Of a stretch of 64,000 bases of DNA, positions 2,500 through 21,459 are shown in pieces. Where the stretch lies: contig JAKRSD010000029.1 of assembly GCA_022402535.1 (NCBI GenBank), positions 1 to 64,000 of the forward strand, in the 5' to 3' direction. A model generated the notes under the pieces. The model worked only from the letters and a program-made list of their open reading frames with translations, did not search any database and was not told the origin of the DNA. The translations under genes were made by a program, and so were the position numbers. Position 1 is the stretch's first letter. Each line of letters starts with the position of its first letter. This stretch comes from Flavobacteriales bacterium. Its GTDB lineage: Bacteria; Bacteroidota; Bacteroidia; CAIKAF01.

Positions 2500-5343
2500 A
2501 TGAGCATTGATAAAATCACAAAGCAACATGTTTTAGATGCGGTTGATAAAATCGAACGGGAAGGTATTGTATTAGAACCTTCAACCCGTTTTGATGTAGT
2601 CATCAATGGCAAAGCGTATCCGCCTAAAGAGGTGATGCGGTATGCCAATTTAATTGCCAATGGCACTAAGGATTGGCCATACAGTGGTGGTGAACCCACA
2701 AACAAGTATCTAAGGAAGTTTGAGTTTGAAATTGTTCCCAAAGGCGAAGAACCTGAAATGCCTGCTACCAAAGAAGGGTTCATTCAAATCCTCCAGCGAA
2801 TGGGGCAGGCAAATGCAACAAAGTTTTTTGGTGGTGCAGCCGATTTAATGGATAAGCTGAAGGTGCAATTAGATGATGCAAGACTTACCTATGGAACAAG
2901 AGCCAACAAGCGATTAACAATTACTATCGGGCAACGCTACTGTTATGCCTACATACCGGCAGAAGAAAATGCATGGCAGTTTATACACGATACAAAGATT
3001 CCAACAAGTGATGACATTGAAGTATCAAAGTACGATGGAGAGCCTTTGGCCTATTATTATCGCTGTTCCGGTGTAGATGCCATCTCAGCTAAGTTTGATG
3101 GACTTGTAAGAGCAGCCGAAAGGGAGTTGAGTAGAACTTCTGTTTCTGGCTTTAGGCGACACAACAATGCCATCTTTGAAAAGGCCGTTTTAGATGCTGC
3201 ATACAGAAAGCAATTGTTTGATGAAGCCTTTGGTACTGTTGTAAATCTAACTGGCAATGTTTGGAAGCTGGGCTGTAATTGGGGGAAAGGTGCTCCGAGT
3301 TTTTATGAGTTTATCAAAAAGCACTCAATGGTTATCGGAGTAAATGATAGAATGTACTCCATTGGCGATTTGGTTATGATCACAGAGGGGCAAACGGTTT
3401 TATCAATCGGAAAAATTCTTGAAGCACCATCACCATCTGTTAATTTTCCGGAGTATGAAGCCGATTTCGACATCCACAAAATTGACTATGATAGCAATGT
3501 AAATATCTCCAAAGTTGAATGGTATGAATTGTCAGAAGACGAAGTATTTACCTATCCATTACAACAAGGCATTTGCAGGGTTCATGCACCTTACAAGAAT
3601 ATTGCTTTAGGCATTTGGCATGATCGCTTTATCAATTATTGGGTATTCCAATGCAACCCGGCAGAATTTGATTATGCAAAGGCAGTAAAAAGCAATTTGC
3701 TGCACGATTGGACGGTAGCGGCTCATAAAGATAAAATCAAGACAAACGACAAAGTCATTCTTTGGCTTACCGGCAAAAGAGCAGGTTGTTACGCATTGGC
3801 ACGTATTACCAGCGACCCGGCTGAGGCAGGCATATCAACCGACAACCATCTCTGGAAATCAGAGCCGAAAATATCATTAAAAGTAGGTATTGAATTAACA
3901 CACAACCTGGTCGATAATCCGTTGCTGTGGCAAAACATTAAATCCACGAAAGGTTTAGAGGAATTGAAAGTTGGCAATCAGGGAACCAACTTTTCAGCAA
4001 CCAGAAAGCAGTATCACACCCTGTTGAAATTAATCGAAGTAAACACTCAGAATATGGGCAAGAAATTAGACTTGTACATCAATACAATACTGTATGGTCC
4101 TCCCGGCACGGGCAAAACCTACAAGCTCAACCAATACAAAGAAACCCACTTCACCGATAGAGGTGTTACCAAAAGTGCAGAGGATGTACTGAAGGAGAAA
4201 GTGAATGCTTATCCCTTTTGGAAAGTGTTGGGTGCTGTATTGGGTACATCATCCAAGTCACTGACTGTTGGAGAAATTATTGAACATCCAATTGTAAAGG
4301 CAAGAATTAACCCTGCAAACAAAACAAAGCCGAACAACCTTGCATGGGCAGATTTGCAATCGTATGCTGATGATGAATCAACACAATTAGAAGGCAAATA
4401 CCGCAGGTCAATAAAACTGTTTCATAAAGACGAGGACAGCAGGTGGAAAATAGCGGATGACAAAAAAGAAGATTTAGCTGACATTATAGATCAGGAATTA
4501 TTAGACATAGCCGCCAATCCGGTACAGCAACCAGTACAAAGTGCCACTTTCAAAACCCGGTATAATTTCATTACGTTCCACCAGAAATACAGCTACGAAG
4601 ATTTTATCGAAGGAATTAAGCCGTTGCTTAGCAGTGAAGATGCAGAGGAACAGTCAGGTGAATTGCAGTTTGAATTAAAGAAAGGCATCTTTTACAACAG
4701 TTGTCTGGAGGCATTGCGTTTAGTGGGTTATGATTCATTTGAAGCCTGCTATCAGGATTCAGCAGAAAACAGGATTGCAAAGTTTGAAACGGCAAAATCC
4801 AATCCATCCATGCAGTTTGCTTTGTTCATTGATGAAATAAACAGGGCTAATATTTCAGCAGTATTTGGTGAACTCATTACCCTTCTTGAAGATGACAAAC
4901 GTATAGGGGCAGACAATGAGATGTGGTTAGAATTACCATACTCTAATGAGAAATTCAGTGTGCCAGGGAATTTGTATGTTATTGGCACAATGAACACAGC
5001 CGACCGTTCAATTGCTTTATTGGATATTGCTTTGAGAAGAAGGTTTGAGTTTAAGTCACTCTACCCTGAATACATAGAATCCGAATGGTGGCCATCACTG
5101 CTGGAAGCCTTGAATCAGGCCATTTATAATTGGAAGAAGAACCCTGATTTTTTTATTGGCCACGCCTTTTTTATAAACAAACCCGAGGCAGACCGTGCCA
5201 AGATATTGAACACAAAGATTATCCCCCTGCTTTATGAATATTGCCAAAGTAATTCGGCTACAGTGAAAAACATTTTAAGTGAGGCAGGTGTAGCTTTAAA
5301 ATCAACGGGCATCAAAGAAAATTTTCAAATTATTGCTGAGTGA
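2500..5343 (+). CDS. mcrB: McrB-type AAA+ restriction GTPase with N-terminal ScoMcrA-like head and EVE domain
   Basis: This is the motor and target-recognition subunit of a modification-dependent restriction system, 947 residues. Residues 1-80 resemble the N-terminal head of ScoMcrA-like proteins (KITKQHVLDAVDKIEREG, then YPPKEV). Residues ~80-240 are unrecognised, and ~245-375 look like a PUA-type fold (WKLGCNWGKG...GDLVMI). Residues ~379-515 form a clear EVE domain (YWVFQCNP, VILWLTGKRAGCYALA), a family that reads modified bases. The AAA+ module has Walker A GPPGTGKT at 533-540, Walker B with D778/E779 (FIDEINRAN) and the McrB-type MNTAD at 831-835. It overlaps mcrC by 4 nt (GTGA) and lies 15 nt after hsdR. 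The base modification recognised cannot be told from sequence alone. Confidence 0.93.
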   Translation: MSIDKITKQHVLDAVDKIEREGIVLEPSTRFDVVINGKAYPPKEVMRYANLIANGTKDWPYSGGEPTNKYLRKFEFEIVPKGEEPEMPATKEGFIQILQRMGQANATKFFGGAADLMDKLKVQLDDARLTYGTRANKRLTITIGQRYCYAYIPAEENAWQFIHDTKIPTSDDIEVSKYDGEPLAYYYRCSGVDAISAKFDGLVRAAERELSRTSVSGFRRHNNAIFEKAVLDAAYRKQLFDEAFGTVVNLTGNVWKLGCNWGKGAPSFYEFIKKHSMVIGVNDRMYSIGDLVMITEGQTVLSIGKILEAPSPSVNFPEYEADFDIHKIDYDSNVNISKVEWYELSEDEVFTYPLQQGICRVHAPYKNIALGIWHDRFINYWVFQCNPAEFDYAKAVKSNLLHDWTVAAHKDKIKTNDKVILWLTGKRAGCYALARITSDPAEAGISTDNHLWKSEPKISLKVGIELTHNLVDNPLLWQNIKSTKGLEELKVGNQGTNFSATRKQYHTLLKLIEVNTQNMGKKLDLYINTILYGPPGTGKTYKLNQYKETHFTDRGVTKSAEDVLKEKVNAYPFWKVLGAVLGTSSKSLTVGEIIEHPIVKARINPANKTKPNNLAWADLQSYADDESTQLEGKYRRSIKLFHKDEDSRWKIADDKKEDLADIIDQELLDIAANPVQQPVQSATFKTRYNFITFHQKYSYEDFIEGIKPLLSSEDAEEQSGELQFELKKGIFYNSCLEALRLVGYDSFEACYQDSAENRIAKFETAKSNPSMQFALFIDEINRANISAVFGELITLLEDDKRIGADNEMWLELPYSNEKFSVPGNLYVIGTMNTADRSIALLDIALRRRFEFKSLYPEYIESEWWPSLLEALNQAIYNWKKNPDFFIGHAFFINKPEADRAKILNTKIIPLLYEYCQSNSATVKNILSEAGVALKSTGIKENFQIIAE

Positions 5344-6656
5344 GGTTATTCGAGTGGCATAGCGATTCTTTTGCCGGTCATCAATCAAAGCTGCCGGGAT
5401 TTGTCAATTACCTTTCTGGTGTTTGGCAAAACAGGAATCGGTATGTCGAATCAACCGAAGAACTAACAGAAGAAGAACAGCAGGAGGAGAAAATACAAAG
5501 GCAGCGTTTTTTTGATTTTACGATAGATGGTAAAATCTCTGCAAGAAACTATGTGGGCGTAGTACAATATGATGGAATCCGTGTTGAAGTGTACCCCAAA
5601 ATATTTGCAGATGATGAAGCAGAAAATACAAAGCTATGGCAACTCAACATGTTGTATTGGCTTTCTTATTGCCGGAAGGTGAAGTTTCCTTTTTCATTTG
5701 CCGATGTTTCTAAGTTGCAATTCGATGACTTTCTGGAACTGCTTATTTACATTTTTGCCAATTTTACCGAAGACGTTATTTCCAATCAGCCTTTTCAGGC
5801 ATACCAAACGGTAGGTGAAGAAACCCCGTTTTTAAAAGGGCGTATTTCATTTGAGGAGTACACCAAAAACAACCTTACAACTGGCAAATGGCAGAATTTC
5901 TATTGTAACCATGAACCGTTTGTTTACGATAATCTTTTCAATCGAATAGTAAAGTACGTTACAAAGCGTTTGCTTGCAGTCAGTGAAAACTTTCTGAATC
6001 AGGAACGGTTAAACGAGATTCTTTTTATCCTGAATGACGTTTCGGACATTCCTTGCTCTGCAAATGATTGTGATAAAGTCAAACTGAATCCTTTGTTTGC
6101 CGAACATAAACACATATTGGATCTGTGCAGGTTGTACCTGTCGAATCAGGTTATTGATTTGGAAGATGAGGACAGCAACAATTTCTGCTTTTTGCTGCCA
6201 ATGGAGTACATTTTTGAGGATTTCATTTTTGGCTTTGTTTCAGATAAGTGGCCAGCATTAAACATCAGAAGTCAGAGTACCGATTATCTTGCTCTCAGTA
6301 AAGGTTCTTCTGTTTTTCAAATTCGTAATGACATCTACATTCCCGATAAGCTGATAATTGACACCAAGTACAAAATCCGTTCAAATAATGATGGTCTGAA
6401 GGCTGGTGTAGCTCAGTCTGACCTTTATCAGATGATTAGTTATGCTTTAAGACGCAATTGCCGTAATGTCCTTTTACTTTATCCGGCAACGGTAAGTTCA
6501 TCCGCTATTGATGCAACATTTGCTATTCCTTCGGCTATGTTATCTGAGAATATAGAAATTGATGTGAGGAATATAAACATCGTTTTCAATAATTTGCAAA
6601 ATGCAGATATGACGATGAAATCAAGAATAACAACTTTAAACCCATTATTTCATTAA
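5340..6656 (+). CDS. mcrC: McrC-type nuclease subunit of 5-methylcytosine-type restriction system
   Basis: McrC partners McrB and supplies the DNA-cutting site. The 438-residue protein starts at a GTG overlapping the mcrB stop. The N-terminal half (FFDFTIDGKISARNYVGV, then VEVYPKIF) matches the McrC family, where it contacts the McrB ring. The C-terminal PD-(D/E)xK nuclease shows D331, D336, D341 and K343 within NDIYIPDKLIIDTKYK, and a downstream QMISYA segment typical of this fold. All expected catalytic residues are visible, so the nuclease should be active. The next gene, a pAgo, starts 12 nt after the stop, so McrC may be shared between a McrBC complex and the Argonaute; that last point is inference. 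Confidence 0.93.
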   Translation: MRLFEWHSDSFAGHQSKLPGFVNYLSGVWQNRNRYVESTEELTEEEQQEEKIQRQRFFDFTIDGKISARNYVGVVQYDGIRVEVYPKIFADDEAENTKLWQLNMLYWLSYCRKVKFPFSFADVSKLQFDDFLELLIYIFANFTEDVISNQPFQAYQTVGEETPFLKGRISFEEYTKNNLTTGKWQNFYCNHEPFVYDNLFNRIVKYVTKRLLAVSENFLNQERLNEILFILNDVSDIPCSANDCDKVKLNPLFAEHKHILDLCRLYLSNQVIDLEDEDSNNFCFLLPMEYIFEDFIFGFVSDKWPALNIRSQSTDYLALSKGSSVFQIRNDIYIPDKLIIDTKYKIRSNNDGLKAGVAQSDLYQMISYALRRNCRNVLLLYPATVSSSAIDATFAIPSAMLSENIEIDVRNINIVFNNLQNADMTMKSRITTLNPLFH

Positions 6657-6668
6657 GCAAAATACACT

Positions 6669-8729
6669 GTGCAGAATCTGTTGTTCAACATATTGAGTTT
6701 TGACTGGTACAAAGACAAGAAAACCGTTTATTTCGGCTTGTCTGAAGCACCACGTACAAAAAGAATATTTAAAACAGCCTTCCCGGAGCAGTTGAAAGAA
6801 GTATTTCCTGTGATTAAAGCAGGAACAGTTGATTTTGTTTATACAAGTTTTGGTTATGCCCAAGAAGGGTTTACACCTGTAGAGATTGATTTAAGGACAA
6901 GCAATATTGATTTTGCAAAGTATTATTATCGGGATACCCTGAGGTATTATTTCAGAACAAAGAAGAAGCAAATAGTACGGCTTGGTTTTATTGATGAAGT
7001 GGAAGTATGGGTTTCTTCAAAGAAATTTTCTACCAAAGAAATTAAGGTATATCAAAAATTTGCTCTGAGGATTCAGATTCAACCTGGAAGCAAATCACCT
7101 TCATTGCTTTTATCCTATGAAGGCAAATCAAAAGTCCTGCAAATACCCGTACCTGAAATTCTGAAGAAAGTACCGCCAAGAGCCATTTCAAAAGTTTACT
7201 ATGATGGTAACATTCATAAGTACGATGATTTACTTGAAATGGCAGATGTAGAGTTTGATAAAGCATTTCCTGTTCTAAGCATCGAACTGATTAAAGCATT
7301 GGATTATTCTTTTGATATACCACCAAAGGATAACAAGTACAAAAGATACTTTGATAACATCACTACTTTCTACAATCATTTTTTAAATAAGCCGGAATTT
7401 AAGAAGCTAATACCGTTGAGTGGGAATGGCTTTATAAAAGTTCCGGCTGCATACATTGGTCAGATAAAGCCTGAGAGCAGTAATCTTTCTTTTGAAAACA
7501 ACAAGCCGGGGAAAAATCCGAAGAAGGACTTCTATCGTTTAAAGCCTGCTGAGCCATCACCGTATAAGAACATCCATGTAATATTTGTTTACCACAAAGA
7601 TGATGAAGCCAAGAAAGATGAATTGAAACATTATCTGCAAAATGGCTTACGTCATTTTAAAGGCTTGTATGGGTATGCTGGTATTTTAAATTATATTGAA
7701 GATGATGCTTCAATGGTGTTCACAGACAAGTATAATCCTCTCCCTGAATTAGAAGCCAAGTTCACTTCCTACAAATATGACACAGCAAATGTCAAGTACC
7801 TTGCCATCTATCTTACTCCATTCACCAAAGAAGAAACCGCAAGGCAGGAAGAACGAATTTATGTGCAGGTAAAAGAGTATCTTCTTAACAGGGAAATTGT
7901 ATGCCAATCAATAGAGCCTAAAAATGTAGGTGGCGAAGAAACCGATTTTGTTTTCAGCCTTACCAATATGGCTGTTGCCATACTGGCAAAGTTGGGTGGT
8001 GTTCCCTGGAGATTGCACACCATTGAAAAGAAGGAACTCATTGTTGGTGTAGGTGCATTTAGGAATCCAAAAGACGGTGTACGTTATTTGAGTAGTGCTT
8101 TCAGCTTTGACAATACAGGCCGCTTCAACTCATTTGATTATTTCATGAAAGATGAAATTACAGAGTTGGCAGGAAGCATATCAGCAAAGGTTAGAGAGTT
8201 TGCAATGATTAATGGTGTTCCCAATCGCCTCATCATTCACTTTTACAAAAAGCTCAGTGAAGAAGAATTGCAGCCCATAGAAAAGGCTTTACAGGAAATG
8301 CAATTCCCTCGGCCAATTCCTGTTTTTATTGTATCCATAAACAAAACAGAATCCACAGACATTGTTGCCTTTGATATGGACTTCCCTGAGTTAATGCCTG
8401 TAAGCGGAACATACATTAGCATCGGCAACAAGAAATATATCCTCTTTAACAATGCAAGAACCGTAGAAGGTTTTAATAAGTATGACGGCTATCATTTTCC
8501 TGTGAAGCTGGCAATTGATTGCAACAAAAAGGAGTTGTTGAATGATGTGAATACAATACACGATTTAATTAACCAGGTCTATCAATTTAGCCGTATGTAT
8601 TGGAAAAGCCTATCCCAGCAGAATTTGCCGGTCACCATTAAGTATCCTGAAATGATTGCAGAGATTGCCCCATATTTTTCTGGTCCAGGAATACCTCAAT
8701 ATGGCAAGGATAAACTTTGGTTCCTATAA
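6669..8729 (+). CDS. Prokaryotic Argonaute (pAgo), MID-PIWI with degenerate catalytic site
   Basis: This 686-residue protein is a guide-dependent nucleic-acid-binding protein of the pAgo family, started by GTG 12 nt after mcrC. The diagnostic MID/PIWI junction is AKLGGVPWRL. The MID pocket residues Y398, K402, Q413 and K441 have the spacing 4/11/28, the same as I recall for the Y-K-Q-K pocket of Rhodobacter sphaeroides Ago, so a 5'-phosphorylated guide is likely bound. In PIWI the first catalytic Asp is replaced (IVGVGA, G462) and the region of the third reads IIHFYKK (Y526), so target cleavage is not expected. The C-terminus NLPVTIKYPEMIAEIAPYF is typical. The first ~290 residues would hold N/PAZ-like regions that I cannot assign. 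It could be a long-B-like or short-like lineage; only a phylogeny would tell. Confidence 0.88.
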   Translation: MQNLLFNILSFDWYKDKKTVYFGLSEAPRTKRIFKTAFPEQLKEVFPVIKAGTVDFVYTSFGYAQEGFTPVEIDLRTSNIDFAKYYYRDTLRYYFRTKKKQIVRLGFIDEVEVWVSSKKFSTKEIKVYQKFALRIQIQPGSKSPSLLLSYEGKSKVLQIPVPEILKKVPPRAISKVYYDGNIHKYDDLLEMADVEFDKAFPVLSIELIKALDYSFDIPPKDNKYKRYFDNITTFYNHFLNKPEFKKLIPLSGNGFIKVPAAYIGQIKPESSNLSFENNKPGKNPKKDFYRLKPAEPSPYKNIHVIFVYHKDDEAKKDELKHYLQNGLRHFKGLYGYAGILNYIEDDASMVFTDKYNPLPELEAKFTSYKYDTANVKYLAIYLTPFTKEETARQEERIYVQVKEYLLNREIVCQSIEPKNVGGEETDFVFSLTNMAVAILAKLGGVPWRLHTIEKKELIVGVGAFRNPKDGVRYLSSAFSFDNTGRFNSFDYFMKDEITELAGSISAKVREFAMINGVPNRLIIHFYKKLSEEELQPIEKALQEMQFPRPIPVFIVSINKTESTDIVAFDMDFPELMPVSGTYISIGNKKYILFNNARTVEGFNKYDGYHFPVKLAIDCNKKELLNDVNTIHDLINQVYQFSRMYWKSLSQQNLPVTIKYPEMIAEIAPYFSGPGIPQYGKDKLWFL

Positions 8730-8780
8730 TGATGATTTTCGGTACAGAAGAATAATCCTTCTCTGAAAATACAAGGAACC
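8719..8780. repeat. Nested inverted repeat at the 3' end of the Argonaute gene
   Basis: Three nested arms can pair: GGTTCCT (8719-8725) with AGGAACC (8774-8780), ATTTTC (8735-8740) with GAAAAT (8765-8770), and AGAAG (8746-8750) with CTTCT (8758-8762). The structure includes the last codons and stop of the pAgo gene. There is no T-run, so it is not a standard terminator; it could stabilise the mRNA end or mark a cassette border. Confidence 0.5.
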
Positions 8781-8785
8781 CACCC

Positions 8786-8799
8786 GGCCAACGCACAAG
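8786..8799 (+). repeat. 14-nt direct repeat GGCCAACGCACAAG, copy 1
   Basis: This is identical to bases 10066-10079. The two copies bracket the noncoding interval and the small unknown gene at 9683-9898. The core CCAACGCA also occurs at 9104 and 9192. Confidence 0.6.
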
Positions 8800-9040
8800 C
8801 ACGGCTAATGCAGTGGCTAACCCACAATGCCAACCCTTCCACTGCATCTATGGTGTTGCCGCCATTTTTAACTGTCATACTTTTTGTGGCTATGCTCCCC
8901 AAGCTTTTGGCACATTGCCTGTTCCGCTTCGCTACACAGCCAAAGAGCCAAGCCAACCCAAGCATAGCAACAAAAAGACGCTTCACTCCAACCACCACCA
9001 CCGTTCCGCTTATGCCAGTATAAAAATTGGCGGAAGCATA

Positions 9041-9143
9041 CTTAAACATAATGCGGTCTTATGTGTTCGCTTCGCACAGCCACCCCACGCTTATGCAAGC
9101 ATCCCAACGCAGTGGCTGTCACATAAGTCGCCATTATGTTAAG
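9041..9143. repeat. Imperfect ~24-nt inverted repeat enclosing ~54 nt
   Basis: The left arm (9041-9065) and the reverse complement of the right arm (9120-9143) share CTTAA, then CATAATG, then CTTATGTG, differing in one extra A and a 4-base central bulge (CGGT versus GCGA). The arms could form a long bulged hairpin or cruciform. The bulged-arm layout recalls folded recombination sites, but no perfect integron box pair is present. Confidence 0.55.
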
Positions 9144-9682
9144 TAGCCAACACCATAGCACTTTTTATCAAAAGTGTAGCCGTGCTTTTTGCCAACGCAC
9201 CCCACCCGAAGAACCCCTACACCCCGCCACCCTTTCAGCGGTGCAGAAAAAAATAAAGCATGATTTGTTTTGAGGCCATGTGCTTGCGGTCAGTTCATTC
9301 TCTTCGCCTCCATTTCGTTCAGGCGTTCCGTTCATTCCGCTTCTCTTCATTCACTACACTATCCTTCACTTCATTTCGTCTACGTTCATTTCACTCACCT
9401 CAGCACCGCACGGCAAAAGCAATTCCTTCTCTGCGTTTCGCAAAGCAACCGCACTGGCTTTCCGTGTCATGGCATTTGCTTAACCCACGCTGCAATGGCT
9501 TTTGTGTTTGGATAATTTACAAAAGCCCCCAATGCTTTTAAGCAAATTGCTCATGCCACTCCAAGCCGCCAACCCGGTTTGCTTCACTCCGTTTCGTCAT
9601 TGCATTTGCCTTTGACCCACCGCACAGTTGCAAGCGGTATGCTTTATTTTTTCTGCGACTTGTTTACCCCATTGCCGACCCA

Positions 9683-9898
9683 CTAAAATCCGTATCCTTC
9701 AAACCAAGTATCTACCTCCTGAATGGATCTGAGTAATACTTCATCCTCAATTGGAAATCCTTCAATCTGATTGGTGATTTTGATTTGATGACCTTCATTG
9801 ATTTGGTCTTGCATAGTCCTTTTTAATTCCTCAAAAATGTGAGGTTGTCCGTTCTCCAATGGAGTTAGGATTGATTGTTTGTTGTAATTGTAAACCAT
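9683..9898 (-). CDS. Small hypothetical acidic protein
   Basis: The frame encodes 71 residues beginning MVYNYNKQSILTPLENG and ending DTWFEGYGF. I do not recognise it. Its balanced amino-acid composition, an acidic C-terminal half with no membrane segment, and an AT-rich upstream region argue that it is real, unlike the other open frames in this stretch. No consensus TAnnTTTG box is visible upstream. It stands alone within the repeat-rich interval, facing the Argonaute gene tail-to-tail across ~950 nt. It could be a small toxin, antitoxin or phage-type protein, but nothing in the sequence decides this. Confidence 0.45.
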   Translation of the reverse strand: MVYNYNKQSILTPLENGQPHIFEELKRTMQDQINEGHQIKITNQIEGFPIEDEVLLRSIQEVDTWFEGYGF

Positions 9899-10229
9899 AG
9901 GTATAATGTTGTTTATTATAAATATGTCGGAATTGAGGAAAAATCACTTTTTATCAAAAAATATTTTGGAAGCCCACTTTTAAAAAATAAAAAAGTCAGC
10001 AAAGTTAGGGCGGCACGCACAAGCCCACGCTGATAAAAATCCAAAAGACTACGGCATAAACACAAGGCCAACGCACAAGGCTATCATTTATTCCGTTTCC
10101 TTTTGGTTTTTTGCCCTTGCCGCCCTGTCAAGAGGCTTTCTTTTTTCTTTTTTTTTTCGGTTTTTTTTCTGTTTTCTTTTAAAAATGTGTGCGAAGCGTA
10201 GCGGAGCAAAATTTTAAATCCCTACGTGT
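9899..10229. other. 331-nt AT-rich and T-tract intergenic stretch
   Basis: No gene is seen. The stretch includes a 9-nt inverted repeat, AGGGCGGCA (10007-10015) against TGCCGCCCT (10118-10126), and a long T/C tract near 10138-10180. The second copy of the 14-nt direct repeat is also here. It probably holds the promoter of the DUF6943 gene, although no clear TAnnTTTG box was found. Confidence 0.45.
10066..10079 (+). repeat. 14-nt direct repeat GGCCAACGCACAAG, copy 2
   Basis: This is an exact copy of 8786-8799, in the same orientation, 1280 nt downstream. Confidence 0.6.
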
Positions 10230-10655
10230 ATGCAGTCAGCAAAAATTCAAACGTACAGCCCCAAAAATGAAGTTTCGCAGCACTCATTTTTCATTCTCTG
10301 CAAAGGTTTAAATAGTGGTAAGCCTCTGGAGCAACCAACCGCCAACTGTTTTGTAATGTCATGCGAAAGCGGAGAAGAAATGAAGCGTTACTATTGGCTT
10401 TGTTTTGGTTTATGGCAGTCTAAAGCCTTTCACCCTCACTTGTGCGGCTCAGTCATTCCATTTTTACGCATCAATGATTTTAGAAAGATTTTTGCAGAGG
10501 CAGCAGCCCAAACAATCGGCAATGAACCAAAGGAGCAAAAAATGGTTTCCGACCTTCAAAAGTTGCAGCAGCTTGAAAAGCTATACAAGCAAAACTTGCT
10601 TCTTATAACTGATGCAAAAAGGGCAGTGTTTTACAAGTTCATGCGGAGGCGTTAA
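10230..10655 (+). CDS. DUF6943-family protein
   Basis: The 141-residue protein contains GLNSGKPLEQPTANCFV and YYWLCFGLWQSKAFHPHLCG followed by SVIPFLRINDF, the conserved core of the family I know as DUF6943 from Bacteroidota. Its function is unknown. The C-terminal third is a charged helix (EKLYKQNLLLITDAKRAVF). No signal peptide or membrane segment is seen. The start is ATG at 10230; later in-frame Met codons would remove conserved family residues. It stands alone between noncoding accessory DNA and an unrecognised gene on the other strand, which suggests it belongs to the accessory region rather than to the core chromosome. Confidence 0.75.
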   Translation: MQSAKIQTYSPKNEVSQHSFFILCKGLNSGKPLEQPTANCFVMSCESGEEMKRYYWLCFGLWQSKAFHPHLCGSVIPFLRINDFRKIFAEAAAQTIGNEPKEQKMVSDLQKLQQLEKLYKQNLLLITDAKRAVFYKFMRRR

Positions 10656-10756
10656 TCGCTTCCGCCTGTTTCGCCTTTATCCCGACCATGAAGCAAGGAT
10701 GAAGGCAAGATGATTCGCCTCTAAGCGTAAAATATTGGCAGGTATGCCAACAAAAA

Positions 10757-10793
10757 AGCCCCGGATGAACCGAGGCTTTTTCAATGGAGCAGA
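10757..10793 (-). terminator. Rho-independent terminator of the 10805-11611 gene
   Basis: On the minus strand an AAAAAGCC-type arm pairs with GGCTTTTTT around a short GC-rich loop (cggttcatcc), just past the stop codon at 10805, and ends in a T-run. On the + strand it may also serve the DUF6943 gene. Confidence 0.75.
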
Positions 10794-10804
10794 TAATTCA
10801 ATCC

Positions 10805-11611
10805 TTAGAAAATCTCCTGAATCTTCAACGCATTACCTGAGTTGAACAGGTAATAGTTGGAACCAACTTGCTGATAGAACTCGATTCCGATACACTGCAA
10901 CACACTTGCATCAGCCGTAAGGGTTGGAGAACCCGGCAGGGTAGCAGTTACAACAGTTGACGTTGCAACAGGTGAGAACAAATCAATGTAGCCGGAATAC
11001 TGAACGTCTGAAAGTTCATTATTGGCTGCGTCAATCGGTTCATAAACTCCGGTAGTGTCATTGTACGCAAAATCCGATACACAAGCCAGAGCATGGATTA
11101 AGCGAAAATGAGTAGCACCAGCAGGAGCATTCACCAAGTTTGCAGGGTTGAAAGCTGGAACGGTTAAAGTACCGCTGTCACGACCTGGAGTGTGGGACAG
11201 AGTGAACGGAGCAACAAACACACCTTCCAAGCTCACGTTTTTGTCAAACGCAAATCCGTTCAGGTACTGGCTTTGCTGCGAAATCAGAATTGCACGGTAA
11301 CCCCTTGCTTCAGTCTGATCTTCCAGATTGATTTTTTTCATTATCGCAGTGAGGCGACCTGTCATTTGAGGGTCACTCATTTGCTTAATGATTTGAGAGA
11401 GAGCAACCCGAACAGATTTACCGGCTGTTGCACAGCCTCCGAACTCGTTCATGTTTTCACGAGTACGTTCAAATTCGGGAGCAGTTAAGATTTGGTCACC
11501 ATTGGGACCGCCTACAAGTCCTGCAAAGTCGCCTTGCAGTCCTTTGATTTTGAAATGTCGTACACCGCCCATTGTGCCGGAGTAACGAACGAGACCAGTT
11601 TGTCTTGCCAT
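10805..11611 (-). CDS. Conserved Bacteroidota protein of unknown function (MARQTG family)
   Basis: The 268-residue protein starts MARQTGLVRYSGTMGGVRHF and has the segment FERTRENMNEFGGCATAGKSVRVAL. This N-terminal pattern (MARQTG, a beta turn, then RTREN.xEFG and a helical stretch) is one I have seen repeatedly in Bacteroidota hypothetical proteins. No function is established that I know of. There is no signal peptide or membrane helix. The C-terminal half is rich in small residues and beta-type segments (TSTVVTATLPGSPTLTAD), which would fit a self-assembling or structural protein, but that is speculation. It has its own promoter box and a strong terminator, so it is a single-gene unit. Confidence 0.8.
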   Translation of the reverse strand: MARQTGLVRYSGTMGGVRHFKIKGLQGDFAGLVGGPNGDQILTAPEFERTRENMNEFGGCATAGKSVRVALSQIIKQMSDPQMTGRLTAIMKKINLEDQTEARGYRAILISQQSQYLNGFAFDKNVSLEGVFVAPFTLSHTPGRDSGTLTVPAFNPANLVNAPAGATHFRLIHALACVSDFAYNDTTGVYEPIDAANNELSDVQYSGYIDLFSPVATSTVVTATLPGSPTLTADASVLQCIGIEFYQQVGSNYYLFNSGNALKIQEIF

Positions 11612-11653
11612 TTTGCTATTTTTTTAAAAGTTTGAAAATTCAAATATCTTTAG

Positions 11654-11661
11654 CAAATTTA
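11654..11661 (-). promoter_or_regulatory. -7 box TAAATTTG for the 10805-11611 gene
   Basis: The minus strand reads TAAATTTG, an exact TAnnTTTG match, 42 nt upstream of the ATG. A near-palindrome (TTTGAA-TT-TTCAAA) lies between it and the start. Confidence 0.5.
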
Positions 11662-11702
11662 CATTCTATTACATTGATTTACAGCAGTTTACGCAGTGCA
11701 AA

Positions 11703-12197
11703 ATGGTGCAATTCAAAGCATACGGACAAGCAATTATCAAAACACACCTCAAAATCACTAAAGTGGTTGATGGGGATGGCTTGTTTGTAGTGAACCCTTT
11801 CAACAAACAGGAAGAAGAAATTCGTTTCCTGGGCATTGATGCACCTGAAATAAGAAGGTCTAAAAAGCTGCAACAGGATGAAAGAGAAACACACTTACCC
11901 GGCCAGCTTCTCTTATTGTTGGGTAAACAATCAAAGGATTTTCTGAACTCCATTGCACCAGTTGGAACGTCTGTTACTATCCAACTGGAAAAGCCTCATA
12001 GCATTGATTCTTTTGGTCGTACACTGGCTTATGTGTTTCTTCCTGATGGAACTTGCCTAAATGAATTGATGATTAAGGAGGGCTTTGCAAAGCCTTACAG
12101 CAGGTATTATTGTGAAGCGTTAGCAGATTTTCAGCAAATCAATATATTTGCAAAGTCGAATCGAAAAGGACTGTACCAAACAGTCAACGATTTTTAA
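11703..12197 (+). CDS. Thermonuclease-like (SNase) protein
   Basis: The 164-residue protein is a Ca-dependent staphylococcal-nuclease-fold phosphodiesterase. The metal-site segment VVDGDG is at 21-26, the catalytic arginine in IRFLGIDAPE is R41, the general base of that motif is E49, and the second arginine in DSFGRT is R106. All expected active-site residues are present. Compared with secreted nucleases it lacks a signal peptide, so it would act in the cytoplasm. Its divergent neighbour starts 91 nt away. Its position at the end of the defence/accessory region suggests a role against foreign DNA or RNA, though this family also occurs in housekeeping contexts. The start is ATG at 11703. Confidence 0.85.
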   Translation: MVQFKAYGQAIIKTHLKITKVVDGDGLFVVNPFNKQEEEIRFLGIDAPEIRRSKKLQQDERETHLPGQLLLLLGKQSKDFLNSIAPVGTSVTIQLEKPHSIDSFGRTLAYVFLPDGTCLNELMIKEGFAKPYSRYYCEALADFQQINIFAKSNRKGLYQTVNDF

Positions 12198-12242
12198 TCA
12201 GAAGCACTATTTTGTTACCAGTTTTCCCTTGTTTCACTCAAC

Positions 12243-12262
12243 TTTGTTGCCTATTTGTTGCC
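12243..12262 (+). repeat. Two copies of TTTGTTGCC, 11-nt period
   Basis: TTTGTTGCC occurs at 12243-12251 and 12254-12262 with a 2-nt spacer, one helical turn apart. It lies in the 191-nt gap between the accessory region and the first chromosomal gene. It could be a binding site for a recombinase or a regulator; no gene overlaps it. Confidence 0.4.
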
Positions 12263-12388
12263 CAATCGGCTGAAAGCCTTGATACACAAGGGTACTATAC
12301 TTTTTGTATCGGAAAGTAATTTTTTATCCTATTCACTTGCTAATCAGAAAACAATCCCATAACATTGGGGTAACATATCGTTTACCTC

Positions 12389-14414: not shown

Positions 14415-17400
14415 TTATTTTTTAATGAATCGTCTTACTGCAATTATACCCTCGTTTGATTCTAATGTAACATTGTACATTCCCGGGGCAAGTGAAATTA
14501 CATCGAATGATTTAGAATATTCGGTAAATACTTTGCCGAGGAATTCATTCATTACAATTTTACCCTGAATGTCGTATACTTTCATGGTAACTTCTTTTTC
14601 ACCTGCAGGAACATATGTCAGTGTTATCCAAGTTTCAGCAGGATTAGGGAATAGGTTCACCACCTCATTCAACCCATTTTCACCGATTCCGGTGTTCGGA
14701 ATAATTACGGTAAAGTATGCTTTATCTTCACCGCAATCATTGCTTACGGTTAATGTTACAATAAACGAACCTGCCTGATTGTATGTATGGGTAGGTGAGA
14801 AGGCATTTGAAGCCGGACTTCCGTCACCAAAATCCCAGGTATAAGTGTTACCACCGGTTGAGGTGTTATTAAAAGTAAATGTAGGGCTGCTACCGGATAC
14901 TGTGAACGAAGCATTGGGTGCTGTATCAATAGTAACAACAACGGCAGGATTAGAGGAGTTTCCGCTACATCCGGCGGCATTGGTTACAAATACAGAGTAG
15001 TTTCCGGCTGTAGTTACTACGATGCTTTGAGATGTTTCTCCATTTGACCAAACGTTTCCAGTCTGAGAACTAGATGTCAGTGTGACGCTACCTCCTTGAC
15101 AAAAATTCGTAGGACCGCTTACGGTAACGATAGGAGTAGGAGGCGTTTGACTTGCGTCTACAACCACAGGTTCTGAAACCAGGGAAACACAACCTGACGC
15201 AGTAGTTACAACCACCGTGTAAGTTCCCGATGATGTTACTGTAATAGATTGTGTGGTCGCTCCGTTTGACCATAAGTTACCATTAGCAAAATTTGATGTC
15301 AAGGTAACGCTGCCGGGAGCACAGAAAGTAGTCGGCCCGGATGTGGTTATCACAGGCTGAGATGGGAATGGACTGGTTGCCACAACTACAGCTGCAGAAG
15401 ATGGTGATGTACACCCGTTGGCATCCGTGTGGATTACCGTATAAGTTCCTGCAACACTCACCGTAATAGACTGTGTGGTTGCACCTGTTGACCATAGGTT
15501 GCCTGTGGCATAGTTAGACGTAAGTGTTACGCTGTCGCCTATACAGAATGCCGTAGGTCCTGATGTGGTAATGAGGGGTGCTGTTGGTATTGGGTTAGAG
15601 GTAACCTCTACAATAACTGAACTCAATGAGGTACATCCCAGAGCATCAGTATAAGTAACCGTGTATGAACCGGAAGTCGAAGCAATTATACTTTGTGTAG
15701 TAGCCCCCGTTGACCAAAGATTGCCTGATGCATAGCTTGATGTCAAGGTAACGCTGCCTCCCGCACAGAATGTGGTTGGTCCTGATGTGGTAACCGTTGG
15801 TGCTGATGGAAGCGGATTTACGTTGATTGCTATTGAGGAGGTTGAAGAGGTACATCCATTGATATTTGTGTGAGAAACGGTGTATGTACCTCCTGCGGTT
15901 ACTGTAATGGATTGCGTTGTCGCTCCGGTAGACCAAAGATTTCCTGTGGTATAATTTGAGGTTAAGGTAACACTGCCACCGTCACAGAAGGAAATTGGTC
16001 CTAATGCCGAAATGATTGGCGGCACAGGCGTTGGATTAACTATTACTAATACGTTGGCCGATTGAACAGAAGTACATCCGTTGGCGTTGGTATGAGCAAC
16101 CGTGTAAGAACCTCCAGTAGTTACTGTAATGGATTGTGTGGTTTCACCTGTTGACCAAAGATTACCCGTTGCATAGCTTGATGTCAGCGTAACACTTCCT
16201 CCCGCACAGAATGTAGTAGGACCTGAAGCCGTAACCACAGGAGCAGTCGGATTTGGGTTAACCGTTACAACTGTAGAAGCAGATGCGGGAGAGGTACATG
16301 TATTGGCATCTGTATGGATAACCGTAAACGTTCCGTTTGTGGAAACGGTGATTGACTGTGTTGTCGCTCCGTTAGACCAAAGGTTACCAGTGGCATAGCT
16401 CGAAGTCAACGTTACACTTCCTCCTAAACAGAATGTGGTCGGCCCAGAAGCCGAAATGGTAGGTGCAGACGGCAATGGGTTAACAGTAACGGTCGTTGCA
16501 GTTGATGGAATCGATGTACATCCGTTACCGTCGGTATGGGTAACCGTAACAGATTGGCTGGTTGAAACCGTTATGGATTGTGTGGTTTCTCCTGTTGACC
16601 AAAGATTACCCGTAGCATAATTTGAGGTAAGTGTTACACTTCCTCCTGCACAGAATGTGGTAGGGCCAGACGCTGTGATTACAGGAGCTACAGGAAGCGG
16701 GTTTACTGTAATTACTGTTGCTGCTGATGTAGGTGAAGTACAACTGTTAACATCTGTGTGCGTTACTGTTACGGTTTGATTGGTAGTAACCGTAATGCTT
16801 TGTGTGGTTTCTCCGGTAGACCAAAGGTTTCCTGTAGCATAACTCGAAGTTAACGTCACGCTTCCTCCCTGACAGATTGTGGTAGGACCGGATACCGTTA
16901 CTGTTGGTGCTGCAGGTATAGGATTTACGGTCACTACAGTTGCAGCAGAAGCAGCAGAAGTACATCCGTTACCATCAGTATGGGTTACTGTTATGGTTTG
17001 GTTGGTTGAAACCGTAATGCTTTGTGTAGTTTCTCCGGTTGACCAAAGATTACCTGTAGCATAATTTGAAGTCAATGTTACACTTCCGCCTGCGCAGAAC
17101 GTGGTAGGACCTGAAGCTGTGATGACAGGTGCTGAAGGAGTTGGATTCACGGTTACGTTGAAAGCAGTAGAAGCGGGAGATGTACAGTTATTTCCATCAG
17201 TATGGGTCACCGTGAATGTACCCGAAGCAGAAACAGTGATGGATTGAGTGGTTTCTCCGTTTGACCATACATTACCGCTTGCATAGCTTGACGTTAACGT
17301 CACATTCGTACCCGAGCATACAGTTACAGAATTTGAATTAGTTGAAAGGCATCCAGTACATGAAGGTGAAGCAGCAGCCGATGCCGCACAGATTCCGTCC

Positions 17401-20400
17401 CATAAAGTTGAGCAGCAGAAAGGGTCAGAAGGGCAGATTGCATTTTGACAGGCTAGATCTGATGGAAAACCGGGTGCTCCGGAAGGTTGATCGCAGAACG
17501 GGCCGGTATTGGCTGGATTAGAAGAAATGGTCGGAGCAATCGGGTTTGGATTTACAGTTACAACCGTAGCTGAAGAAGCGGCAGAAGTACATCCGTTTCC
17601 GTCGGTATGAATAACCGTAATAGTTTCATTGGTTGATACGGTAATGCTTTGTGTAGTTTCCCCTGTTGACCAAAGATTTCCTGTGGCATAACTTGAAGTT
17701 AGCGTTACGTTTCCACCTGAACAGAATGTGGTTGGGCCGGATGCGGAAATTACAGGGGCAGTAGGATTAGCATTAACCGTAAATACGGCAGGGGTTCTAC
17801 AGAATCCACCCGGGAATTGCGCATAGAATGTGGTTGAACCCGGTGTATTGGTGTCGATTATGCCGCTACCTGTAACTCCTACCGGATTAAACGGTGAACC
17901 GTTGGCAATAGGAGCTCCGCCAGTTGGAGTTGTATACCATTCCACATCAGCAGGACCTCCACCGGCAGGATTGGTTGTTACTACGGTGTATGGTCCAAAA
18001 GAAGTATTTGAAAATCCTGTTACCACCAGCGTGTAGGATACGCCGGCAGTAAGGGTAACATTTAAAGTTGACTGAAGACTGCATGCATCATCATTTGATG
18101 CTACGAAAGTGTTACCCGCGCAGGCACCGGCTGGATTAAACGGATTTTGATACATGGCCAAAAAGGTGTCAAAGGACGCATTGCCACACGTAGAGAACGA
18201 GTATGCACCGGTGGAAGGAGCTACAAAACTGTGAGTAGCAAAGGGAACGGCTGTTCCTACTGCAGAGTTAGCACAAGCACCTCCCTGCGCAATGGACAGA
18301 GGCCTGTTATAAGTTGGTGCTCCGCTGGTATTACCACTAAAGTTTGGAAGGGGACTTCCTGAACCTCCTCCTAAAGTAGATGTAAGACCACCGGTTACCG
18401 TTCCGCCTTGACAAAGTTCATAATCTGTAGTGATAGGGGCATCTTCCTCAGTGATATCAATTACTGTTGAGGAGGGAGAAGTACAACCACTTCCTGCAGT
18501 AAAGAATACAGAATATGAACCGGCAGTCGAAACCGTAATACTTTGTGTGGTTTCACCGGTTGACCACTGGTTTCCGGAAGCATAACTTGATGTTAACGTT
18601 ACCACATCACCAGGACAAAGAATCGTGTTTCCGGTAATTGTAATAACTGGAGCAGTAGGTAATGCTATAACAGAAACAGATATCGGTGCAGAGGCCGCAG
18701 AAGTACATCCGCTTGCACTAGTATGAGTAACGGTTACCGATTGGTTTGAAGAAACGGTAATGGACTGTGTGGTTTCACCTGTTGACCAAAGGTTACCAGT
18801 GGCATAATTTGAGGTAAGCGTAACACTGCCGCCCGCACAGAATGTAGTTGGCCCGGAAGCGGTAATTACGGGTGCCGCAGGAGTCGGGTTCACGGTTACG
18901 TTGAAAGCAGTAGAAGCGGGAGAAGTACAGTTATTACCATCCGTATGTGTCACGGTAAATGTACCTGAAGTAGAAACAGTGATGGATTGAGTGGTTTCTC
19001 CGTTTGACCATAAATTACCGCTGGCAAAGCTGGAAGTTAAAGTCACATTCGTACCCGAGCATACAGTTACAGAATTTGAATTAGTTGAAAGGCATCCAGT
19101 ACATGAAGGTGAAGCAGCAGCCGATGCCGCACAGATTCCGTCCCATAAAGTTGAGCAGCAGAATGGGTCTGAGGGGCAGATTGCATTTTGACAGGTTAAA
19201 TCTGATGGAAAACCGGGTGTTCCTGTAGGTTGGTCACAGAAAGGTCCTGATCCGCTATTTGCAGGTGGATTTGAAGTGATGGTCGGAGCAGAAGGGATTG
19301 GATTAACCGTTACCACCGTTGCAGCAGAAGCGGCAGATGTACATCCGTTTCCGTCAGTATGGGTAACTGTAATGGTTTCATTGGTTGAAACGGTGATGCT
19401 TTGCGTAGTTTCTCCTGTTGACCAAAGATTACCCGTAGCGTAATTTGAAGTTAGTGTTACGCTTCCACCGGCACAGAATGTGGTCGGACCGGAAGCGGAA
19501 ATAACAGGAGCAGCGGGTAATGCATTCACTGTAACTGCCGTTGCGGCAGAAGCAGCCGAAGTACATCCGTTTCCATCAGTATGGGTTACAGTGAATGAAC
19601 CGGTTGTAGAGACTGTGATACTTTGAGTAGTTGCTCCGTTAGACCAAAGGTTTCCTGTAGCATAATTTGAAGTAAGCGTAACACTACCTCCCGCACAGAA
19701 TGTAGTTGGACCCGAGGCTGAAATTACTGGTGCAGCCGGTAATGGATTAACCGTTACCACAGTTGCAGCAGATGCCGCAGAAGTACATCCGTTTCCGTCG
19801 GTATGGGTAACCGTTACAGATTGGTTAGATGAAACCGTTATAGATTGTGTGGTTTCCCCTGTTGACCAAAGATTTCCGGAAGCATAATTTGAACTCAATG
19901 TTACACTACCTCCCGCACAGAATGTGGTTGGACCGGAGGCTGAAATTGTGGGAATTACCGGAAGAGGGTTTACTGTAACTACGGTAGCTAAAGAAACAGC
20001 CGAAGTACAACCACCTGCATCAACATATGAAACTGAAAATGAACCAGAACCATTCACCAATATACTTTGAGAAGTAGCTCCTGTATTCCATACATTACCT
20101 GAAGCACTGCTTGAAGTAAGAGTTACACTGCCACCATTGCAAAAGGTTGTCGGTCCGCTTGCTGAAATAGTTGGGGGTGGGCATATACAACTCACATCTA
20201 ATGTAAATGTTCCTGTTGCTCCCCCAAAACCTTGTACCAATACCCAATAGGTGGTGCCGCTTGTTGTATTGAAGGTTACGGAGGATTGTAAACCGCAAAA
20301 ATCATCATTGCCTCCTATACACGTCAGACTTCCCGATGAACCGGTATAAATATTCAGTTTAGTGTCATATGAAGCACCCAAACAAGTAGAAACCGTAATT

Positions 20401-21341
20401 GGTGATCCGTTACCTATAACAGAATACCAAACCCCGGGGGCAGAAACGGAAGTACCACAAAGAAGATTCTCATCTACACCTTGCGTAGCTCCTGATGTAG
20501 TGCCGCTCACTGAAGCTCCACAGGCAACGGGAATAGCACCTGCAATCTCATCATTTGGAATACTAGCAACGCAACTTCCTGTGTAGGTAATGGCAAAATC
20601 AAAACCGGGTGCAACAATACTTCCGTCTGAAGTAAATTGAACCGTAATTATTTGTCCGGGAGCACTGGTAAAGTTATAAGTACCTGTTCCCGTAAGAGTT
20701 TGAATTAATGTTCCGCCAGTTCCGGCACCGCTGAATACATTTATAAAATCCCAATTGGTTTCTACATTATAATTACCTGAGATTGTGATAACCGCTGCTC
20801 CACTATTTTGAAGAACGGTAAACCCGTTAGCTCCATTAGCATAATTAGCTAAACCTGCATGGTCCTGAAGCTGGGTGTTGGTTCCACAAGGCACGGAATT
20901 ATTTCCTGCTAAAGGCACCAACGTGGCACCACCAACTAATGGAGTCAAGCAGCTTACACATGAAGGATTTGTAGCAGCAGCAGAAGCACATAATGCATCC
21001 CAGCTTGTATTGCAACAAAATGGGTCAGCTGCGCAGATAGCTGTCTGGCAGGCAGGAACACCAGGGAAGCCGGGTCCTGCTTGTGCCTGATCGCAATATG
21101 GAGGACCTACATATCCTCCACCTGTGGATAAGCAACCTACACAAGATGGACTTACGGCAGCAGCAGATGCACATAAATTATCCCAACTAGTGCTGCAACA
21201 AAATGGATCTGCTGCACAAATGGCAGCCTCGCAGGTAGGGTTGGATGGAAAACCGGGGCCGGGTTGAGCCTGGTCACAAAACTGTGCATTAGCAACAATT
21301 GACACTGCTGCCAGCAGAATGGCGAATAGAAAACGCTTCAT
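14415..21341 (-). CDS. Giant T9SS-secreted protein with 19 Ig-like repeats, Cys-rich modules and PKD domain
   Basis: This predicted cell-surface or secreted protein has 2308 residues. I start it at the ATG giving MKRFLFAILLAAVSIVANAQ, a clear signal peptide, rather than 27 codons upstream. Two Cys-rich modules (CDQAQPGPGFP..., DPFCC..WD..C) come first, then CUB-like and anchor-type beta segments. By eye there follow 19 Ig-like repeats of ~75 residues, each built around GPTTFC.GGSVTLTS, W(S/N)(T/N)G.TTQSI and GCTS; two carry a further Cys-rich module. A PKD domain (YTWDFGDGSP) precedes a type A T9SS sorting domain (LFPNP...VRRFIKK). These repeats match the Ig-like CHU_C-associated type. It is likely an adhesin. 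Near-identical DNA blocks show recent internal duplication. Confidence 0.88.
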   Translation of the reverse strand: MKRFLFAILLAAVSIVANAQFCDQAQPGPGFPSNPTCEAAICAADPFCCSTSWDNLCASAAAVSPSCVGCLSTGGGYVGPPYCDQAQAGPGFPGVPACQTAICAADPFCCNTSWDALCASAAATNPSCVSCLTPLVGGATLVPLAGNNSVPCGTNTQLQDHAGLANYANGANGFTVLQNSGAAVITISGNYNVETNWDFINVFSGAGTGGTLIQTLTGTGTYNFTSAPGQIITVQFTSDGSIVAPGFDFAITYTGSCVASIPNDEIAGAIPVACGASVSGTTSGATQGVDENLLCGTSVSAPGVWYSVIGNGSPITVSTCLGASYDTKLNIYTGSSGSLTCIGGNDDFCGLQSSVTFNTTSGTTYWVLVQGFGGATGTFTLDVSCICPPPTISASGPTTFCNGGSVTLTSSSASGNVWNTGATSQSILVNGSGSFSVSYVDAGGCTSAVSLATVVTVNPLPVIPTISASGPTTFCAGGSVTLSSNYASGNLWSTGETTQSITVSSNQSVTVTHTDGNGCTSAASAATVVTVNPLPAAPVISASGPTTFCAGGSVTLTSNYATGNLWSNGATTQSITVSTTGSFTVTHTDGNGCTSAASAATAVTVNALPAAPVISASGPTTFCAGGSVTLTSNYATGNLWSTGETTQSITVSTNETITVTHTDGNGCTSAASAATVVTVNPIPSAPTITSNPPANSGSGPFCDQPTGTPGFPSDLTCQNAICPSDPFCCSTLWDGICAASAAASPSCTGCLSTNSNSVTVCSGTNVTLTSSFASGNLWSNGETTQSITVSTSGTFTVTHTDGNNCTSPASTAFNVTVNPTPAAPVITASGPTTFCAGGSVTLTSNYATGNLWSTGETTQSITVSSNQSVTVTHTSASGCTSAASAPISVSVIALPTAPVITITGNTILCPGDVVTLTSSYASGNQWSTGETTQSITVSTAGSYSVFFTAGSGCTSPSSTVIDITEEDAPITTDYELCQGGTVTGGLTSTLGGGSGSPLPNFSGNTSGAPTYNRPLSIAQGGACANSAVGTAVPFATHSFVAPSTGAYSFSTCGNASFDTFLAMYQNPFNPAGACAGNTFVASNDDACSLQSTLNVTLTAGVSYTLVVTGFSNTSFGPYTVVTTNPAGGGPADVEWYTTPTGGAPIANGSPFNPVGVTGSGIIDTNTPGSTTFYAQFPGGFCRTPAVFTVNANPTAPVISASGPTTFCSGGNVTLTSSYATGNLWSTGETTQSITVSTNETITVIHTDGNGCTSAASSATVVTVNPNPIAPTISSNPANTGPFCDQPSGAPGFPSDLACQNAICPSDPFCCSTLWDGICAASAAASPSCTGCLSTNSNSVTVCSGTNVTLTSSYASGNVWSNGETTQSITVSASGTFTVTHTDGNNCTSPASTAFNVTVNPTPSAPVITASGPTTFCAGGSVTLTSNYATGNLWSTGETTQSITVSTNQTITVTHTDGNGCTSAASAATVVTVNPIPAAPTVTVSGPTTICQGGSVTLTSSYATGNLWSTGETTQSITVTTNQTVTVTHTDVNSCTSPTSAATVITVNPLPVAPVITASGPTTFCAGGSVTLTSNYATGNLWSTGETTQSITVSTSQSVTVTHTDGNGCTSIPSTATTVTVNPLPSAPTISASGPTTFCLGGSVTLTSSYATGNLWSNGATTQSITVSTNGTFTVIHTDANTCTSPASASTVVTVNPNPTAPVVTASGPTTFCAGGSVTLTSSYATGNLWSTGETTQSITVTTGGSYTVAHTNANGCTSVQSANVLVIVNPTPVPPIISALGPISFCDGGSVTLTSNYTTGNLWSTGATTQSITVTAGGTYTVSHTNINGCTSSTSSIAINVNPLPSAPTVTTSGPTTFCAGGSVTLTSSYASGNLWSTGATTQSIIASTSGSYTVTYTDALGCTSLSSVIVEVTSNPIPTAPLITTSGPTAFCIGDSVTLTSNYATGNLWSTGATTQSITVSVAGTYTVIHTDANGCTSPSSAAVVVATSPFPSQPVITTSGPTTFCAPGSVTLTSNFANGNLWSNGATTQSITVTSSGTYTVVVTTASGCVSLVSEPVVVDASQTPPTPIVTVSGPTNFCQGGSVTLTSSSQTGNVWSNGETSQSIVVTTAGNYSVFVTNAAGCSGNSSNPAVVVTIDTAPNASFTVSGSSPTFTFNNTSTGGNTYTWDFGDGSPASNAFSPTHTYNQAGSFIVTLTVSNDCGEDKAYFTVIIPNTGIGENGLNEVVNLFPNPAETWITLTYVPAGEKEVTMKVYDIQGKIVMNEFLGKVFTEYSKSFDVISLAPGMYNVTLESNEGIIAVRRFIKK
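17160..19205 (-). repeat. Near-identical internal duplication within the giant gene
   Basis: Bases ~17160-17455 and ~18895-19195 are nearly the same, including an exact run of over 100 nt covering the start of the Cys-rich module (CACATTCGTACCCGAGCATA and onward). Both encode an Ig-like repeat carrying a Cys-rich insertion. The rest of the gene contains more diverged ~220-nt repeats. Confidence 0.8.
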
Positions 21342-21459
21342 AATAGGGCAAAAATTGAGTAAGACTTTTAGATTAAGGTATCTATATGACCACAAATAAA
21401 AGGTATTTTTTTCAATTTGCAAACAAGTGTTAAAGGAGTTAGAGAAATCTACAAAAAGA

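Follow-up and report, generated by a model that had tools for sequence, protein, structure and literature searches.

The window, a 64,000-nucleotide stretch of DNA that coincides at its start with the first position of contig C22 in a Flavobacteriales genome of 3.41 Mb, opens with a defence cassette whose final gene encodes an Argonaute (Ago). Positions 1-54 are the end of an insertion sequence. Its terminal inverted repeat (ATCTTCCGAACACTTGT) is located at 38-54, and the same 17 bp, inverted, are present at the ends of contigs C7 and C11. A 12-bp target-site duplication, GCTGTAGACCCC, follows at 55-66 within hsdR, the gene for the motor subunit of a type I restriction enzyme, whose 3' part occupies 55-2484 (+; Pfam SWI2_SNF2 and a T1R_D3-like domain, NCBIfam TIGR00348). 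The next gene, at 2500-5343 (+), is McrB-like and combines an EVE domain (residues 379-501) with an AAA+ motor (Pfam EVE and AAA_5; NCBIfam PRK11331 below its cut-off). It is followed by McrC at 5340-6656 (+; Pfam McrBC, PF10117, E=2e-67). AAA_5 with EVE, together with PF10117, identifies the pair as a McrBC type IV restriction system. The HsdR-McrB-McrC-Ago run ends in Ago, at 6669-8729 (+). An EVE-specific or CoCoNuT link to Ago was considered and set aside, as the accessible Argonaute passages of the EVE paper concern eukaryotic piRNA and not the present arrangement.

The 5' part of hsdR is found at the end of contig C7 (locus L197). At both contig ends, C7 and C22, the inverted repeat ACAAGTGTTCGGAAGAT lies next to the same 12 bp, which precede it on C7; the repeat also terminates C11. 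The simplest reading is that an insertion sequence within hsdR broke the assembly and probably the gene, in which case C7 and C22 would be joined at this point. Type I restriction is probably broken in this strain, while no damage is apparent in McrBC and Ago downstream. Inside the type I restriction genes, the cassette also carries PtuA and PtuB of a Septu system and a DpdF-like helicase (L195, 16090-18110; L197, 3-3635, on C7). No RNA families were found in the Ago locus, and promoter-like sites there are no commoner than in shuffled sequence.

The Ago open reading frame starts with GTG and encodes 686 residues with no internal stop, and the genome contains one copy of it. The sole Pfam domain found is Piwi (residues 394-667, E=4e-13); the Pfam scan of the protein gave no PAZ match. 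PADLOC model PDLC02385, 'pAgo', spans the full length of the protein with 808 bits, and the family is already represented in that defence database, although under no named subtype. In one other genome (G003, L048) the reading frame of a related Ago is interrupted by an in-frame TAG and represents either a pseudogene or a split Ago.

The initial annotation described an intact guide pocket, formed by Y398, K402, Q413 and K441 of the MID domain at spacings 4/11/28, and a degenerate catalytic site, with G462 of VGVGA (459-463) at the first aspartate and HFYKK (524-528) in the third region. The translation contains all of these residues, and both statements are well supported by an alignment of 44 sequences, in which the relatives are 37-52% identical to the window Ago, and by a comparison to L152. 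The four pocket residues, G462 and positions 524, 525 and 527 are invariant in the alignment, and position 526 is Y in 41 and F in 3 of the 44 sequences. Because only 75 of the 686 positions are invariant, the chance that all four pocket positions would be so is ~1e-4. L152 is a reference pAgo that keeps the catalytic aspartates (IGID, ILRDG, KLID); aligned to it, three of the four tetrad positions can be placed with confidence, D1 corresponding to G462, D3 to Y526 and D4 to E661. On the strength of these comparisons, the pocket appears to have been kept and the slicing residues lost, and Ago is predicted to bind a target but not to slice it. Slicing through an unconventional residue set could draw on E661 at the fourth tetrad position and on E533, D564 and D569, further acidic residues conserved in the family. 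It is very improbable, given that D1 and D3 are non-acidic in 44/44 sequences (D1 is Gly, D3 is Tyr or Phe) and that long-B pAgos, the class to which this protein belongs, are inactive as a group (PMC6299218).

The window Ago is assigned to the single-chain long-B pAgos, with a PAZ region that looks reduced, on the basis of profiles, a structure model and a tree. In a profile search of the PDB, AfAgo, RsAgo and EcAgo, all classed as long-B (PMC10954474, PMC10620215), rank first and the short pAgo 8in8 is far weaker. The 11 matches with E no greater than 0.01 include no long-A prokaryotic Ago. The AF2 model (pLDDT 88, pTM 0.84) has RsAgo as its top structural match (Z 33.2, rmsd 4.4, 619 residues). 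For the N-lobe modelled alone (pLDDT 92), the Z values are 10.6-10.9 against AfAgo-N and about 11 against PAZ-bearing Agos, which amounts to a tie. The lobe consists of 260 residues, compared to 336 in the PAZ-bearing PliAgo and about 228 in AfAgo-N; since it is shorter than that of PliAgo, the PAZ region looks smaller than full size in the model.

In a MID-PIWI tree made of Bacteroidota sample sequences, without typed references, the family forms one group (88/89), apart from eight of the nine other long-B-like pAgos (98/87) and from the short pAgos (99/97). Short pAgos of this sample have V/IGxS at D1 and HK at D3, whereas the window Ago and the other long-B-like pAgos have VGxG and H-x-[YF]-K. 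Motifs and tree lead us to reject the suggestion of the initial annotation that the PIWI motifs resemble those of short pAgos. Its remark that the protein is longer than short pAgos is correct: a short pAgo system consists of a MID-PIWI protein of about 450-550 residues with an HK/RK motif and an APAZ partner, whereas here there are 686 residues, an N-lobe of its own, a YK motif and a separate clade. The closest typed proteins are long-B, the tetrad is substituted (PIWI*) and the 5'-guide motif is of the YK type. As far as sequence can tell, the degenerate tetrad, the conserved pocket and the long-B affinity are all apparent. Long-B pAgos are catalytically inactive as a group and mostly carry PAZ* (PMC6299218). 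An inactive PIWI with an intact MID is the usual long-B state, and therefore that finding is by itself ordinary. The genomic context, on which the earlier description was silent, is the unexpected and more interesting part.

Downstream of Ago, positions 8775-12301 are the right arm of an island backbone that is 96-98% identical in nucleotide sequence to islands of other genera. The arm contains a DUF6943 gene (10230-10655, +), an unnamed open reading frame (10805-11611, -) and an SNase homologue (11703-12197, +). An ORF-like stretch at 8813-9142 (MANPQCQPFHC...) is nearly unchanged in the right arms of other genera (L034, L056, L061); it is probably part of the conserved arm and may be no gene. 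The arm is followed at 12302-12322 (+) by the right attachment site, a 21-bp sequence identical to the 3' end of mnmE (TTTTGTATCGGAAAGTAATTT), comprising the final 18 bases of mnmE and the 3 bases after it. A degenerate form of the site is located to the right of Ago in 10 further loci and to the left in 15, and is absent from 1.49 Mb of control loci, both strands counted. In the relatives, whose right island ends lie outside the flanks covered, no locus showed att repeats on both sides.

The mnmE gene is on contig C7, which also carries a gene for a tyrosine integrase, one that weakly resembles DUF6617, a pair of small HTH genes and a BT4734-like gene. Also present are a primase-helicase of the DUF3987 type, an HTH_31 regulator, HsdM, PtuA and PtuB of Septu, the DpdF-like helicase, a 213-aa open reading frame, HsdS and, at the contig end, the 5' part of hsdR. 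We infer that a single island spans the distance from mnmE on C7 to position 12322 of the window, with Ago as its last cargo gene. The gene order in relatives across Bacteroidota is integrase, HTH_17, BT4734-like_N, DUF3987, HTH_31, variable cargo and Ago. Of eight islands whose primase shows 50% identity or more, six contain Ago (presumably the one in the window's genome, and those in G057, G281, G461, G575 and G126); of the remaining two, G411 has an Ago fragment on another contig and G472 has no Ago. Carriage by plasmids or phages was rejected, as the only pAgos on plasmids are distant (identity <26%) and phages have none.

A scan of GTDB genomes gave 354 encoding places, the best 80 of which are loci L051-L130. 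The cargo that precedes Ago includes type I and type III restriction-modification systems, McrBC-like pairs, DISARM-like DrmA/DrmB (named by resemblance), an HSDR_N/DUF5655 nuclease, YhcG, RhuM, Abi_2 and PIN with an HTH-peptidase. In the minimal cassette, present in 19 loci, an HTH_31-type regulator is directly upstream of Ago and there is no other cargo. GmrSD is found downstream of Ago in some loci. No gene adjoining Ago, on either side, is constant across the family loci. HsdS and RND genes have been noted near pAgos (Ryazansky 2018, PMC6299218). RND metal-efflux genes were rejected as partners of this Ago: they are outside the cassette, vary by locus and resemble either flanks of the insertion site or cargo of a separate kind.

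The backbone arms of the window island are 93-98% identical in nucleotide sequence to those of the Chitinophaga terrae and Flavihumibacter islands, whereas the Ago proteins are about 46% identical. The left homology ends just before HTH_31 and the right homology starts about 46 bp past the Ago stop. The Agos of L082, L087 and L104 are about 95% identical in nucleotide sequence and stand behind unrelated operons, the identity being confined to the Ago gene. Thus Ago is exchangeable cargo, usually ending its cassette; the ends of the island and the exchange of cargo around Ago can be traced in these sequence comparisons. Algoriphagus and Sphingobacterium share an 8.2-kb cassette at 96% identity. 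In L082, L087 and L104 (Ago at about 9989-12085) the neighbours on both sides are unrelated, and the identity breaks off no more than a few bases from either the start or the stop codon.

As in the BPAN system, recognition of a target by Ago could activate a nuclease of the cassette (McrC, HsdR, Res, DUF5655 and others), which would kill the cell or destroy the invader. Long-B Agos are known to be coupled in this way to bAgaN, Sir2 or membrane effectors (PMC10620215), and many of the genes immediately upstream (-1) of Ago code for nucleases of the PD-(D/E)XK type or for subunits of restriction enzymes. Furthermore, one nuclease-Ago pair (L058/L061) moves as a unit. However, the upstream gene varies while Ago stays, the -1 gene family being common to just 46 of 79 Ago pairs at 90-98% identity, and in some Ago cassettes an effector is absent. 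Nor is there a conserved gene downstream of Ago, as there is in the known effector systems, and in the window's genome hsdR is probably broken. Coupling to a cassette nuclease is consequently a minority possibility, although the foremost among the alternatives.

Restriction genes are found in 24 of 36 Ago clusters (42 of 85 loci), compared to 4 of 21 loci of other Bacteroidota pAgos and 1 of 20 random stretches, counts in which the controls may be too low because the queries were drawn from the family loci. This enrichment, together with the several restriction types that take the same place ahead of Ago, would suit a mobile, gene-precise Ago module that is a general partner of restriction, sits last in whichever restriction cassette the mnmE island has, receives guides from restriction fragments or ends, and binds the invader DNA that survives. 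But 43 of the 85 loci have no restriction gene by the same test, and defence genes cluster in islands anyway, which makes a restriction partnership rather unlikely.

The island module accompanies 25 of 36 Ago clusters (63 of 85 loci), and none of the 21 other pAgo loci or 20 random stretches, with the same reservation about queries taken from the family. This tie, and the presence of Ago in six of the eight close islands, could mean that Ago serves the island and not the host, by silencing or excluding rival islands and plasmids or by aiding maintenance of the island. At least one close island (G472) lacks Ago, however, and Ago has been swapped between backbones, so that it is cargo and not core. 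Exclusion of rivals would in any case require the same guide-directed interference as the explanation preferred below. Service to the island is judged slightly less probable again than a restriction partnership.

The preferred explanation, held with confidence and doubt in about equal measure, is that this cassette-terminal long-B pAgo of an mnmE island provides stand-alone, guide-directed binding of invader DNA without slicing. Guide-directed binding without slicing is supported by the conserved pocket, the RsAgo-like fold and the degenerate site. Support for stand-alone action comes from the lack of any fixed effector and from the cassettes that hold just a regulator and Ago. The closest solved relatives are RNA-guided DNA-binding long-B Agos (PMC10954474, PMC10620215). 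We infer the guide chemistry, the DNA target, the interference and the independence from neighbours as follows. By analogy with RsAgo, EcAgo and fAfAgo, Ago would load small 5'-phosphorylated guides, probably RNA, and pair with complementary invader DNA. It would then block or mark the bound DNA without cutting it, destruction falling to other nucleases. Ago would act as a self-contained module under the Xre-type regulator of the cassette, and the restriction enzymes next to it would be carried along but work independently. The window contains no candidate for a downstream effector of known kind between 8729 and the end of the island. Several points speak against stand-alone action. Characterised long-B Agos mostly work through an effector (PMC10620215), and one encoded away from the Ago locus would have escaped the present analysis. 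The gap between Ago and the upstream gene has a median of only 17 bp, and such tight packing would also fit a coupled function. Restriction genes, moreover, are commoner near this family than near other pAgos.

With RsAgo, EcAgo and AfAgo together with AfAgo-N, the window Ago has in common the YK-type MID pocket, the degenerate site with Gly at the first Asp, the RsAgo-like fold and what looks like a reduced PAZ. It differs from them in that no effector gene is directly downstream and in that it ends restriction cassettes in an mnmE-site island; identity outside the family is about 25% or less. An inactive long-B Ago as sensor would be shared with BPAN, BPAS and BPAM, but the downstream nuclease, Sir2 or membrane effector that defines those systems is absent, and the backbone arm starts 46 bp past the Ago stop. 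Manakova 2024 (PMC10954474) described how long-B pAgos have lost PAZ to differing extents and how a gene downstream of them is conserved; that gene is not seen in the present family.

Song et al. 2023 reported a long-B subclade accompanied by og_54 (VirE-N), usually 2-8 genes upstream, and left open the role of long-B Agos that lack an effector or are accompanied by VirE-N alone (PMC10620215). The present family likewise combines a long-B Ago with a BT4734-like_N (PF08800) gene a few genes upstream, third in the smallest cassettes. PF08800 formerly went under the name VirE_N. The window Ago family fits the og_54-associated subclade, matched by description rather than by sequence. In the window's genome the BT4734-like gene is farther upstream, on C7, but in many relatives it is in the expected place. 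Unlike in the og_54 reading, this gene belongs to the integrase-primase module of the island and is not a partner of Ago. The mnmE island thus probably accounts for the 'VirE-N' neighbour of the 2023 subclade, a gene that looks like island replication machinery. The anatomy of the island offers an answer to the question left in 2023: the neighbouring gene belongs to the machinery of the island, Ago itself is cargo open to exchange, and the smallest cassette consists of no more than a regulator and Ago. The role of an effector-less inactive Ago becomes testable with a two-gene construct. Furthermore, a route is apparent by which Ago spreads alongside restriction systems across Bacteroidota orders.

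Islands at mnmE (trmE), such as SGI1, insert at the 3' end of the gene and duplicate the gene end. The window island does the same, but has another integrase and replication module, Bacteroidota hosts and defence cargo. A literature search, with most subscription journals outside it, returned nothing linking pAgo with mnmE islands. Two islands with a primase about 40% identical (L258, L259) adjoin dnaK, not mnmE, and contain mobilisation-like genes; no Ago was detected in their genomes. Just beyond the window island, at 14415-21422 (-), lies the gene for a 2335-aa protein in which Ig-like repeats are numerous and whose C-terminal tail resembles those of type IX secretion substrates.
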